Below the pieces are notes generated by a model. The model was not told the origin of the DNA. It did not search any database and was given only the letters and a program-made list of their open reading frames with translations. Shown piece by piece: positions 19,274 through 44,795 of a DNA stretch of 49,183 bases. Where the stretch lies: positions 1 through 49,183 of IMG/VR virus record IMGVR_UViG_3300027980_000042. One strand, given 5' to 3'. How positions within the stretch are numbered: position 1 is the stretch's first letter; each line of letters begins with the position of its first letter. The DNA comes from a virus. The translations under genes were made by a program, and so were the position numbers.

Positions 19274-19837
19274 TTAACCTTTCGCTCTTACCTTGTCCGG
19301 ATCCACTTCCATCGCTGTCCTGCGCCCGAACACCTCGATCTCCACTTGCAGGCGCGAATAATCGTCGTGTGCTCGGCGGATTACCTTCTTGAACTCGCCA
19401 GTAAGTCCCTCGAACGGCCCTGCAAGCATCTCTAGCGCCTGTCCTGGCCGATACTGGCATTGATACTCGCTATTGGCCTTGAGTCGCTCTGCGTCGGCAT
19501 ATTCGGCCTCTACGGCGGCTTTGAAGTCGCGAAGGCCATAACGCGGCGGGCGTCCTTTGACTGACGGCATCCCCTGAATGTCCATGCGCGACAGCTCCAC
19601 CGGCTTTCCGATGATGTGCTTTTGCTCCACCACGTCACGCCAGTAGATCGCCGGGATGACGCAGAACATCAGTTTTGGCACGTATGGCTTGTCATACCAG
19701 ACAGCGGCCCGCTTTTCCTTGACGTATCGGCTTTCCAGCCTGATCGGCACCCACGGGTGCAGGCCGATGCTGCGAAGCTCCTCCGCAACGTCGAACTCTT
19801 TTCCGCGCGTCGTGTTGATTGCGTAGATCGAATTCAT
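19274..19837 (-). CDS. NusG/RfaH-like transcription factor, probable antiterminator
   Basis: 187 aa. The N-terminal part (SIYAINTTRGKEFDVAEELR, LHPWVPIRLESRYVK, VPKLMFCVIP) follows the NGN fold that binds RNA polymerase. The C-terminus holds a KOW motif (YRPGQALEMLAGPFEGLTGE). It is longer than NusG paralogues by an inserted middle of about 50 residues. Encoded at the promoter-distal end of the left early operon, just before the late genes on the same strand, it could let polymerase read into the late region. Confidence 0.75.
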   Translation of the reverse strand: MNSIYAINTTRGKEFDVAEELRSIGLHPWVPIRLESRYVKEKRAAVWYDKPYVPKLMFCVIPAIYWRDVVEQKHIIGKPVELSRMDIQGMPSVKGRPPRYGLRDFKAAVEAEYADAERLKANSEYQCQYRPGQALEMLAGPFEGLTGEFKKVIRRAHDDYSRLQVEIEVFGRRTAMEVDPDKVRAKG

Positions 19838-20439
19838 ACTGAAGTCCTGCCGTGGTTTGCGTGATATCCATGCTCTCTTTCTGCGGCCTCCCTAGCAGCC
19901 ACGGCGTCATCAAATCTCTCAAAATGACCCAATGAAACGCGCTTACCACTTACACTTATATACGCCCTCCATTTACCGCTCAGCTTGAACAGGCTTACCC
20001 CAATGTGCCCACTTGTATTATCATCCCTTACCTTTGTATTTTTCGCATTGCCAGATGGGTCCACCTCTCTCAGATTCGATAATCTATTATCTTCTCTGTT
20101 TCCGTTTTTATGATCAATTTGCTTTAGCGGCCATTCACCAAAATGAATTGCCCAGGCCACCCTATGCGCCTTTAGCACTTTCCCGCAGATACCGCCGCTC
20201 CTGTAGCCATGAGCATTTACGCTAGTGAAAGCCTCCTTTCCTGCGTACTTGGCATTAAACAAGTTCATGTTGTGCACCCGCGACCGGGCGACGGCAGCGG
20301 GGAAATGATCGACGCCTCTTGGCCTCCATGTAAGTGATCCCGTCTCTGCGTCGTAGCTCAAAATCTCCCTCAGGTATTTTGGCGTTATTTCTCTTCCGTA
20401 TTTACCCATTGGGTTGCATGTTTCGTATGTACTGCTCAT
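19834..20439 (-). CDS. HNH homing endonuclease with AP2-like DNA-binding domain
   Basis: 201 aa. The HNH part has AHRVAWAIHFGEWPLKQIDH, KNGNREDNRLSNLREV and N-K repeats; the C-terminal AP2-like part reads IGVSLFKLSGKWRAYISVSG and LGHFERFDDAVAAREA. Free-standing homing endonucleases of this type are mobile. G+C is lower than the neighbours, supporting recent arrival. AAGGGG lies before 20439, and its stop overlaps the NusG-like start. Confidence 0.88.
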   Translation of the reverse strand: MSSTYETCNPMGKYGREITPKYLREILSYDAETGSLTWRPRGVDHFPAAVARSRVHNMNLFNAKYAGKEAFTSVNAHGYRSGGICGKVLKAHRVAWAIHFGEWPLKQIDHKNGNREDNRLSNLREVDPSGNAKNTKVRDDNTSGHIGVSLFKLSGKWRAYISVSGKRVSLGHFERFDDAVAAREAAEREHGYHANHGRTSV

Positions 20440-42382: not shown

Positions 42383-42577
42383 CTATTTCGCTTGCCAGCC
42401 GCAGATTTCCCTGCCGGTCAGATTGTGCCGCAGGATTTGCCGCGCGGTTTCGTCCGTCAGCACGTCCTTAACGCTCGGGCGGATGGGCATGGCCCAATCG
42501 CATTCACTCGTCGTTGTCACGCATCCATTCAGAAAGCTGATCGCGAACAGAGCCGCTATCCATTTTGCTAACGTCAT
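42383..42577 (-). CDS. Rz1-like outer-membrane spanin
   Basis: 64 aa. Signal peptide MTLAKWIAALFAISFLNGC with lipobox LNGC, short mature part. It starts inside the preceding Rz-like gene in another frame and ends beyond it, the overlapping arrangement found in many phages. Together with Rz it fuses the inner and outer membranes at lysis. Confidence 0.75.
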   Translation of the reverse strand: MTLAKWIAALFAISFLNGCVTTTSECDWAMPIRPSVKDVLTDETARQILRHNLTGREICGWQAK

Positions 42578-42740
42578 CCTGCACGTCCTTTGCCTTGTGG
42601 GAGTCGCTGAGGCGCTTGTGTAGGGCGTCTGTCTTGCTTTTTGCGCGCCCTACCCGCTGCCCGCCCCAGAACGCCCCCAGAACCGCCAGAAACGCCCCTG
42701 CGGCGATGATTGCGTAGAGTTTCAGCTTACCCCAAATCAT
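42504..42740 (-). CDS. Rz-like inner-membrane spanin
   Basis: 78 aa. One N-terminal span (LYAIIAAGAFLAVLGAFWGG) and a periplasmic charged helix (RAKSKTDALHKRLSDSHKAK). Short for Rz but correct in topology. Overlaps the holin-like gene by 14 bases. Confidence 0.75.
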   Translation of the reverse strand: MIWGKLKLYAIIAAGAFLAVLGAFWGGQRVGRAKSKTDALHKRLSDSHKAKDVQDDVSKMDSGSVRDQLSEWMRDNDE

Positions 42741-42930
42741 TCTTCTCAGCCGCCATCAGAGAACCGACAAACGCAATCACAGCCAGCCCAAGGCCGGAAT
42801 ACACTTGCCATTCCATTTCGTTGACTGCCCCGTGCATCGCCAGCGCTGCGCCCACGGTATTCATGAAGTGCCGTAGCTGCCCCATGACTTTCGGGCGGTT
42901 TAGGGTGGTGATTGCCTGCTTCCAGTTCAT
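42727..42930 (-). CDS. Holin-like membrane protein (67 aa)
   Basis: MNWKQAITTLNRPKVMGQLR, two hydrophobic stretches (FMNTVGAALAMHG and VYSGLGLAVIAFVGSLMAAE). Similar in pattern to small holins beside endolysins in alphaproteobacterial phages. It lies between amidase and spanins, coupled by overlaps. Confidence 0.65.
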   Translation of the reverse strand: MNWKQAITTLNRPKVMGQLRHFMNTVGAALAMHGAVNEMEWQVYSGLGLAVIAFVGSLMAAEKNDLG

Positions 42931-43436
42931 TTCGCGAACCCCCTCAAAAACGCCACCAGCCATTGCAGGAACCCGCCGTAGCCCGTGGATGTGTCAGGCC
43001 GTGATACACTCGACCACCATGCAGTCGCGTCAAACCCCGGACATTGCGTTGCGGCCCCCGGCATATCGCGGTGGCCGACAACCTTTGCACCGGGGTATCG
43101 GTCCAGCAATTCACCGATGACACATATCATTGATTGCTTCTGCGCCGCCGTGCGCGTGTCGCGGCCTGTATTCGGGTCGTCTTGGTAAACGCCGCCCTCG
43201 TAGCAGACGCCGACCGAATGGTGATTGTGGCCCTTTACGTGCGCGCCTTGCTCATTCAGGTCGCGCCCTTTTTCCACCAGACCGGACTTGCGGATATACT
43301 TGTGATACCCGATGCCCTTCCACCCGCGCCGCTTGTGCATGGCGTCGATATCGGCTGCTGAGAAATCCTGTTCTACGTTCGTCGCGCTATAATGCACGAC
43401 TATATATTTCACGTCATCGTCTCTTAGATACGTCAT
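42927..43436 (-). CDS. Endolysin: N-acetylmuramoyl-L-alanine amidase (Amidase_2)
   Basis: 169 aa. Zinc ligands in IVVHYSATN and in VGHRDMPGAATQCPGFD, with YHKYIRKSG and HNHHSVGVCYEGG between; ends in a hydrophobic/basic tail. Cuts the stem peptide from murein. The start at 43436 follows a homing endonuclease gene and seems to have been rebuilt: a second, diverged copy of its first 15 codons lies at 44055-44098, in the place where the gene would be coupled to its upstream neighbour. Confidence 0.88.
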   Translation of the reverse strand: MTYLRDDDVKYIVVHYSATNVEQDFSAADIDAMHKRRGWKGIGYHKYIRKSGLVEKGRDLNEQGAHVKGHNHHSVGVCYEGGVYQDDPNTGRDTRTAAQKQSMICVIGELLDRYPGAKVVGHRDMPGAATQCPGFDATAWWSSVSRPDTSTGYGGFLQWLVAFLRGFAK

Positions 43437-43484
43437 GCCATTACCGGTGTTGCTTTCTGTTGTACATTCTGCTATTTTTCTCTT

Positions 43485-44057
43485 ATGCCGCAGATACTTA
43501 TTGAAGAACTTAGAGAAGTCTTGGATTACTGCCCCACGACAGGGAAGCTTTTCTGGAAGCCAAGAACCCCATCGCACTTTCCGAATGGGTTTGGGCGCGG
43601 GACAACGCCAGAAAGTGGATGCAGCCGTTGGAACAAGATGTACGCGGGGCAGGTAGCAATGCACGCTATAAACTCAGACGGATATAGAGGCGGCCCAATT
43701 CTGGGACACAGACTGAAGGCGCACAGAGTGGTGTGGGCCTTGGTTCATGGCTCTTGGCCAAAAGATGATATTGACCACATTAACGGTGACCGGTCAGATA
43801 ACCGCATTTCCAACCTTCGCGAAGCAACGCGCGCGCAAAACGGCATTAACCGAAGGTACAAAAAAAAGAAGCGCTCTAAATATCGCGGAGTTGCGCCCGC
43901 GCCCCGCTGTCACAACAAGTGGAGCGCGCGAATATCGTATCAAAACAAGCAATATTTTCTTGGCTTGTTCGACAGTGAAGACAAAGCTGCTCGCGCCTAT
44001 AATCAAGCGGCGCTTGATTTGCACGGTGAGTTTGCTTTCCAAAACAAGATCACTTGA
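43485..44057 (+). CDS. HNH homing endonuclease with AP2-like domain, inserted at the amidase start
   Basis: 190 aa. HNH part: LKAHRVVWALVHGSWPKDDI, then DHINGDRSDNRISNLREATR; AP2-like part: YRGVAPAPRCHNKWSARISY and FLGLFDSEDKAARAYNQAA. Similar in build to the gene at 19834. Points against the late operon and lies between the split copies of the amidase 5' end. Lower G+C than neighbours. A mobile gene that spreads by cutting homing-site alleles that lack it. Confidence 0.9.
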   Translation: MPQILIEELREVLDYCPTTGKLFWKPRTPSHFPNGFGRGTTPESGCSRWNKMYAGQVAMHAINSDGYRGGPILGHRLKAHRVVWALVHGSWPKDDIDHINGDRSDNRISNLREATRAQNGINRRYKKKKRSKYRGVAPAPRCHNKWSARISYQNKQYFLGLFDSEDKAARAYNQAALDLHGEFAFQNKIT

Positions 44058-44098
44058 ACCACGATGTATTTCACAGCGCTGTCAGGTAGGTATGTCAT
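44055..44098 (-). pseudogene. Displaced amidase 5' end (first 15 codons)
   Basis: ATG at 44098 overlaps the upstream stop (ATGA) and reads MTYLPDSAVKYIVVQ, against MTYLRDDDVKYIVVH at 43436: 11 of 15 residues agree but many codons differ (ACA/ACG, TAC/TAT, ATC/ATA, GTG/GTC). After this the sequence runs into the 3' end of the homing endonuclease. This is the original start region cut off from the rest of the gene. Confidence 0.75.
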
Positions 44099-44358
44099 TC
44101 CCGGCCACCGTGGTTTTGAAACAGCGTCAAAACGTGCTTGTTGATTTCCTTCACGTCGCGCTTCACTTCCTGCAAATCGTCCCGGTCGCGCTGGCGCATT
44201 TCCTCGCGCTGCCTCAATTCGGCTTGCATCATTTCAAGCTGCTTTTGGTTGGTGAACACGCGGCGCACCAACCAGACCGCGCCACCGGCTGCGGTAACAA
44301 CGATCCATGTCACGACATTCCCCGCTGCCTTTTCTGCGACTTCCGGCCAACTGCTCAT
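44095..44358 (-). CDS. Membrane-anchored coiled-coil protein, lysis cassette (87 aa)
   Basis: MSSWPEVAEKAAGNVVTWIV, one span (VVTWIVVTAAGGAVWLVRRV), then a charged coiled coil (QLEMMQAELRQREEMRQRDR). It precedes the amidase and may be a holin, pinholin or Rz-type accessory. Start 44358 by ATGA overlap. Confidence 0.65.
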   Translation of the reverse strand: MSSWPEVAEKAAGNVVTWIVVTAAGGAVWLVRRVFTNQKQLEMMQAELRQREEMRQRDRDDLQEVKRDVKEINKHVLTLFQNHGGRE

Positions 44359-44795
44359 GTCCAATACCCATCATCGCGGTAGTCTTGCGGGATCGGGTCC
44401 ATCACCTCGATCTGATCCGACTTGGTGCGGATCGCCGCAATCTGCGTCCAAAGCGCCTCACCGGCATCCCACGCGGCCTGTTCTTCTGCGGTCCAGTTTT
44501 CCGGGCCTTTCTTGGCCAAGATAGCCGCCTGCGCGGTCAGGTTGCGCTGCTTCCACTCCGGGCAGATAGCGATGATGCGGCGGCGGGCCTCTGCCTTTAC
44601 CTGCCCCACCGTGACCGGCTCAGGCGCGGGCGGCTCATAGGCCGCGACATTGCCAGATGCGTCCAGTTCGGCAAAGAGGTCTTTGCTCACCTCGTCGTCG
44701 GGCGATGCCGTGTAGGGTATCCAGCCGAAACGCGGGTGATTTACCTCGCAGTCAATGCGGCCATCGGCGGTGTAGCGGGCGTTTCTGTGCTCCAT
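44355..44795 (-). CDS. Tail fibre assembly-type protein (146 aa)
   Basis: MEHRNARYTADGRIDCEVNH, then PEPVTVGQVKAEARRRIIAI and a Trp-rich helical end (ENWTAEEQAAWDAGEAL). The VK.EA.RRI.AI..W...N motif is typical of DUF4376/fibre assembly proteins. Start 44795 overlaps the previous stop. Confidence 0.65.
   Translation of the reverse strand: MEHRNARYTADGRIDCEVNHPRFGWIPYTASPDDEVSKDLFAELDASGNVAAYEPPAPEPVTVGQVKAEARRRIIAICPEWKQRNLTAQAAILAKKGPENWTAEEQAAWDAGEALWTQIAAIRTKSDQIEVMDPIPQDYRDDGYWT

Follow-up and report, generated by a model that had tools for sequence, protein, structure and literature searches.

In the virus record IMGVR_UViG_3300027980_000042 (the window, that is, the whole stretch of 49,183 nt that was analyzed), a homing-type endonuclease gene interrupts the amidase gene of the lysis cassette. 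The first 14 codons of the amidase are left on one side of the endonuclease gene, and on the other side stands an intact amidase gene that begins with a diverged copy of these codons. Comparison with uninterrupted relatives identifies the remnant as the original amidase start and the working start as the diverged newcomer. The account that we favor, and that we consider reasonably probable as a whole, is invasion by the endonuclease gene together with import of a donor phage's amidase start by co-conversion. Mobile elements cope with the invasion of essential genes in different ways: introns and inteins are removed by splicing, a split is tolerated in some phage genes, and other elements occupy intergenic positions. 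In the present case, a diverged part from outside would instead have replaced the broken part of the host gene, a solution so far known, as far as we found, from fungal mitochondria. This raises the possibility of a route by which phage genes acquire mosaic 5′ ends.

The interrupted lysis cassette

On the minus strand the cassette runs from an 89-codon gene through the amidase and a 78-codon gene to the Rz/Rz1-like spanins, with the endonuclease gene on the opposite strand between the first two (Table 1). The product of the 89-codon gene, with a TNQKQ motif, a membrane segment, and a coiled coil, is likely a lysis-cassette protein. The gene has homologues in at least 28 viral loci, where it often overlaps the gene that follows by ATGA. 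In the window, its TGA overlaps the ATG of the remnant amidase start in the same way (ATGA). No family match was obtained for the 78-codon gene in Pfam and phrog searches. Both sequence and fold identify the amidase as T7-lysozyme type: the residues His15, His122, and Cys132 are invariant (alignment A4), the predicted structure compared with PDB 1lba gives a TM score of 0.70, and the working protein is modeled with the T7-lysozyme fold and a formed first strand (residues 11–16). The host gene product resembles T7 lysozyme (PDB 1lba, 1aro) in fold and zinc-ligand arrangement; T7 has no insertion.

Table 1. Coordinates of the features in and around the interrupted amidase gene
Feature	Position	Strand	Evidence or remark
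Virus record IMGVR_UViG_3300027980_000042, 49,183 nt			
Upstream gene, 89 codons, membrane segment and coiled coil	44095..44364	-	Homologues in viral loci
Remnant amidase start: MTYLPDSAVKYIVV plus the first two bases (CA) of codon 15 (His); 14 codons + 2 nt	44055..44098	-	Profile match, Pro5, ATGA overlap
Homing-type endonuclease gene (HNH_3 + AP2), 190 aa, on the strand opposite to the lysis genes	43485..44057	+	Pfam, phrog, and structure profiles
Insert relative to an uninterrupted amidase gene, 662 bp, splits codon 15	43393..44054	.	Alignment of both copies and relatives
AT-rich spacer, 48 bp, between the divergent endonuclease and amidase starts	43437..43484	.	G+C 0.40
Replacement amidase start, first 44 nt of the working gene: MTYLRDDDVKYIVV + CA	43393..43436	-	Weaker profile match
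Intact amidase gene, 169 aa, T7-lysozyme-type Amidase_2	42927..43436	-	PF01510 2.5e-16; phrog_822 1.8e-52; PDB 1aro/1lba
Small lysis-cassette gene, 78 aa, downstream of the amidase	42727..42963	-	ORF only
Rz-like spanin	42504..42740	-	phrog_1026 1.2e-16
Rz1-like spanin	42383..42577	-	phrog_1275 2.3e-19

The endonuclease gene is open and complete. It matches PF13392 (8.3e-19; 67.4 bits against a cut-off of 24.8) and phrog_99 (4e-62), and its profile matches the HNH homing endonuclease of PDB 1u3e as well as AP2 domains; the HNH motif residues are intact and the invariant motif columns are kept. The C-terminal domain is AP2-like: its PF00847 score of 20.2 bits is below the cut-off of 33.3, while the family profile matches AP2 structures at 1e-9. 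The domain architecture is that of the HNH_3 + AP2 endonucleases of phrog_99, to many phage members of which the protein is ~35–45% identical, and an HNH-AP2 architecture has been described for the ICP1 phage (PMC10448857). The arrangement is free-standing, with the gene on the opposite strand, only 48 bp of non-coding DNA, and no intron, and the stop codon of the endonuclease gene (TGA, 44055–44057) is supplied by the target amidase DNA. The protein is a putative active endonuclease, and its predicted cut site is at the amidase start. The window has a second HNH + AP2 gene (19834–20439, minus strand), 41% identical to the first, that ends at the start of a NusG-like ORF (19274–19837); no gene-start copy was seen adjoining this second gene.

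Two copies of the amidase start

The remnant, read on the minus strand from 44098 down to 44055, is ATG ACA TAC CTA CCT GAC AGC GCT GTG AAA TAC ATC GTG GTT CA. The near-copy of it that the original prediction described is present, but the remnant comprises 14 codons plus 2 bases and not 15 codons, the adjoining base already belonging to the insert. The working start, from 43436 down to 43393 on the same strand, is ATG ACG TAT CTA AGA GAC GAT GAC GTG AAA TAT ATA GTC GTG CA and continues into TTATAGCGCGACG; the intact amidase beyond the insert begins MTYLRDDDVKYIVVHYSAT. Over the 14 codons the two copies have the same base at 28 of 42 positions and the same residue at 11 of 14, and the longest identical run is at most 8 bases. 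Five codons are identical. The differences, which had been described as mostly synonymous, comprise six synonymous ones and three amino-acid changes (P5R, S7D, and A8D). The local alignment of the two start regions scores 37, compared with 31 for the best of 2000 dinucleotide shuffles, which together with the window-wide scan described below argues against a chance match.

To place the two copies among natural alleles, 24 uninterrupted amidase relatives were taken from viral contigs, one genome contig, and one phage record. All 24 have a continuous start at the codon concerned, that is, the insertion site is unbroken and without an endonuclease gene. Their consensus is M[TS]Y.PD..V..IV.HYSAT, in which Pro5, Val9, and HYSAT (positions 15–19) are each present in 24/24 and Ser7 is the commonest residue at position 7. 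A 14-residue start profile built from these relatives and run over six frames of the whole window gave exactly two positives, the remnant at 44098 (45.1 bits) and the working start at 43436 (22.8 bits), followed by a next-best score of −4.6. These are the two places, on either side of the reverse endonuclease gene, at which the copies had been predicted. On leave-one-out profiles the natural starts score 21.6–50.0 bits; in this comparison the remnant has 44.9 bits, and the working start, with 22.8 bits, is near the bottom of the natural range. The working start is without Pro5 and Ser7, and the remnant has Pro5. Moreover, in an uninterrupted relative (L047), a homologue of the upstream gene (34% identical) runs into the amidase gene through the same ATGA overlap, with nothing inserted. 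Since the remnant fits the profile of the relatives far better and stands in the arrangement seen in L047, the sequence comparison identifies it as the old start and the working start as the replacement. The comparison thus bears out the proposals that the upstream, ATGA-coupled ATG is the original one, displaced by the endonuclease gene, and that the altered N-terminus now serves the amidase beyond it.

The conserved copy is the useless one, and the differences between the copies therefore probably predate the insertion. If they were already present when the endonuclease arrived, the replacement start probably came with it. The base composition agrees with an imported start: the first 25 codons of the working amidase have a G+C content of 0.42, the lowest among all 25-codon windows in 20 phage genes, while the start of every other gene in this set has 0.51–0.63; low G+C and codon usage at gene starts can have other causes. 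A replacement confined to ~15 codons, as first proposed, is not what the data establish. Low G+C extends to about codon 25 with no sharp boundary placeable, and the GC3 change-point meant to locate where the import stops is not significant (p 0.29). In the tree of the amidase body the protein is basal in its clade and somewhat atypical, though not more so than the most divergent members; it is atypical at some near-invariant places, with Trp39 and a missing GRF stretch. The same two features are seen in the amidases of phages Shpa and Mae-JY35, while the protein is mostly MxYxPD-clade-like. It is possible, from these sequence features, that the amidase is a mosaic.

With respect to expression, the old start has a fair ribosome-binding site (−6.5 kcal/mol pairing to the anti-SD sequence) and is coupled to the upstream gene, and the new start has a weak one (−3.1 kcal/mol) and is uncoupled. 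No ribosome-binding site for the HNH gene was seen in the 48-bp spacer. A promoter inside the insert had been suggested to drive the rebuilt amidase; a promoter and terminator scan found none, with counts at chance. The amidase is probably read from a late operon transcript that crosses the antisense endonuclease gene.

Origin of the working start

The split codon 15 encodes the His that in the alignment corresponds to T7 lysozyme's first zinc ligand, and the stretch around it is invariant among all relatives. We take His15 to be the first zinc ligand of the amidase by this correspondence. Homing endonucleases usually target conserved sites such as invariant active-site codons. In our model, a free-standing HNH + AP2 endonuclease gene entered the amidase gene at this most conserved point. 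On the amidase side, the incoming DNA would have carried a diverged amidase 5′ end along with the endonuclease gene; this 5′ end most likely stems from the amidase allele of a related donor phage and was moved when the cut was repaired (co-conversion). At the opposite end, the incoming DNA would have been joined straight to the broken start of the recipient, leaving the 14 old codons as a dead, upstream-coupled stub, and translation of the amidase would now begin at the imported start. Since 14 of the 42 positions are different in the working start and the old site is interrupted, the enzyme should find a good substrate in neither flank, and element and host gene could persist together; the differences as such are consistent with a predicted resistance to the nuclease of the element. 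Co-conversion of flanks is established for T-even phages and is what free-standing homing in phages normally leads to (PMC2988022). Against this account we count that no donor phage with an MTYLRDDD start was found in viral contigs or species genomes and that, among the loci examined, none except the window has an amidase with an HNH neighbor or an HNH gene with an amidase neighbor. A scan for other phages with a Tyr11/Val14 start returned none.

A more far-reaching proposal is a natural home-and-rescue system, in which the endonuclease would routinely carry a cleavage-resistant N-terminal replacement for the essential gene that it breaks and so occupy a zinc-ligand codon without intron or intein. 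We regard this generalization as tentative and rather unlikely. Should the replacement indeed resist the enzyme, it would be the equivalent in nature of the rescue gene drives made by engineering.

The main rival to import of a donor allele is that the amidase 5′ end was rewritten by selection, mainly at synonymous positions, into a rescue cassette that its own enzyme cannot cut. Of the residues that the copies have in common, 10 are not Met, and six of these are encoded by a different codon; the changes are spread across the presumed recognition site GTGAAATACATCGTGGTTCA, and both copies have Val14 and a Leu4 encoded by CTA, which are rare in relatives and would be expected if one copy came from the lineage of the other. 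However, natural pairs of relatives at the same 11/14 residue identity show two to six synonymous differences, and the six in the window leave no synonymous excess to explain. Moreover, three amino acids are changed, including the otherwise invariant Pro, which pure recoding would avoid, and the window is the single known instance. Selected recoding is in our judgment unlikely, and the proposal that the start was recoded for cut resistance, which was part of the original prediction, is not borne out. Since the six synonymous changes lie within the range of natural alleles, we prefer the donor allele. On these codon comparisons, a diverged donor allele would account for the synonymous and the three amino-acid changes equally well and would be protected from cutting without selection for recoding.

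The remaining explanations carry little weight. Local duplication at insertion, in which repair copied the target and two identical starts later drifted, would fit the observation that the working start matches no relative (9/14 at most) as well as it matches the remnant (11/14 residues). It would lead one to expect decay of the dead copy and conservation of the working copy, the opposite of what is seen, and we hold it improbable. Little can be said for an assembly artefact, the misjoining in a metagenome contig of co-occurring variants with and without the endonuclease gene. The window is an IMG/VR virus contig and near-repeats are prone to assembler errors, but identical runs of at most 8 bases are far under the overlap used by assemblers, and a join inside the stop codon of the endonuclease gene leaves that gene intact; the probability that we assign to it is small. 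Smaller still is that of an ancient tandem of amidases, one member of which was cut down to its start and then invaded. Such a history formally yields two diverged starts in succession, yet the fragment breaks off right at the stop codon of the endonuclease gene and nothing more of an amidase follows, the record has a single amidase, and two were not seen in any relative examined. Chance similarity and an ancient tandem, named at the outset as the cases that would speak against the prediction, are hence argued against and not supported, respectively. Finally, homing endonucleases are frequent in introns, including those in lysin genes of other phages, but an intron, intein, or translational bypass joining the remnant to the amidase at the RNA or protein level has practically no standing, given that a scan of 4 kb gave no Rfam match at E ≤ 1 and no group I ribozyme flanking the endonuclease ORF, that just 48 bases are non-coding, that the endonuclease gene is on the opposite strand, and that the amidase has a complete start of its own.

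Relation to known mobile elements

The proposed import of a donor start into the amidase gene by way of an endonuclease gene has a close parallel in Tremella mitochondria, where mobile elements with duplication and replacement of a host-gene N-terminal part have been described (PMC7315562). In both cases, the old gene part is on one side of the element and a diverged copy of a host-gene part on the other, and for Tremella this copy was suggested to derive from a foreign donor and to take the place of the original N-terminal part (PMC7315562). However, the Tremella elements are introns of mitochondrial genes, whereas the phage lysis gene in the window harbors a bare antisense HNH gene without an intron, and its whole start is replaced. 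The insert works like a Tremella-type element but is not one. Likewise, in fungal mitochondria (e.g., PMC6279837), partial duplication has left C-terminal fragments of atp6 and cob beside ORFs of homing endonucleases; there the duplicated part is from the opposite gene end and the genes are mitochondrial. N-terminal duplication by mobile elements was already known, which qualifies the novelty claimed earlier; for phages, no report of the replacement of a gene start was found in the literature searched, which left most subscription papers outside.

Among phages, the T-even seg and mob genes are free-standing endonuclease genes, some of them in critical coding regions, such as mobA, which lies in gene 60, and mobE, which lies in nrdA of Aeh1, and with co-conversion of flanks (PMC2988022). 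In the split T-even genes the two polypeptides reassemble (PMC2988022), whereas here the broken start is abandoned and an intact gene has a new start. Synthetic home-and-rescue gene drives also insert a nuclease into an essential gene and supply with it a substitute for the broken part that is meant to escape cutting (PMC7968924). These are engineered in insects with Cas9 and are resistant by design, whereas resistance is here only predicted.

A flank survey of HNH relatives covered 78 distinct loci including the window, plus 12 further phage records. The flanking pair in the window scores 57, a value reached by 1 of 1500 mismatched pairs, and a gene-start copy on both sides is absent from the ~86 other endonuclease-family loci in the viral contigs and the 12 phage records. 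The only comparable flank matches, at L253, L254, L256, and L259, were rejected, as these are GC-rich repeats and not gene starts. At these four loci and at L249, another HNH gene is flanked by short GC-rich repeats (GCGGCCCTGC units) that are ordinary-looking. In three Felixounavirus loci (L300, L303, and L305), an HNH gene of the same family lies directly behind the DNA polymerase gene; the annotation of this polymerase gene has two pieces in GEP101 and L27 but a single one in bumzen.
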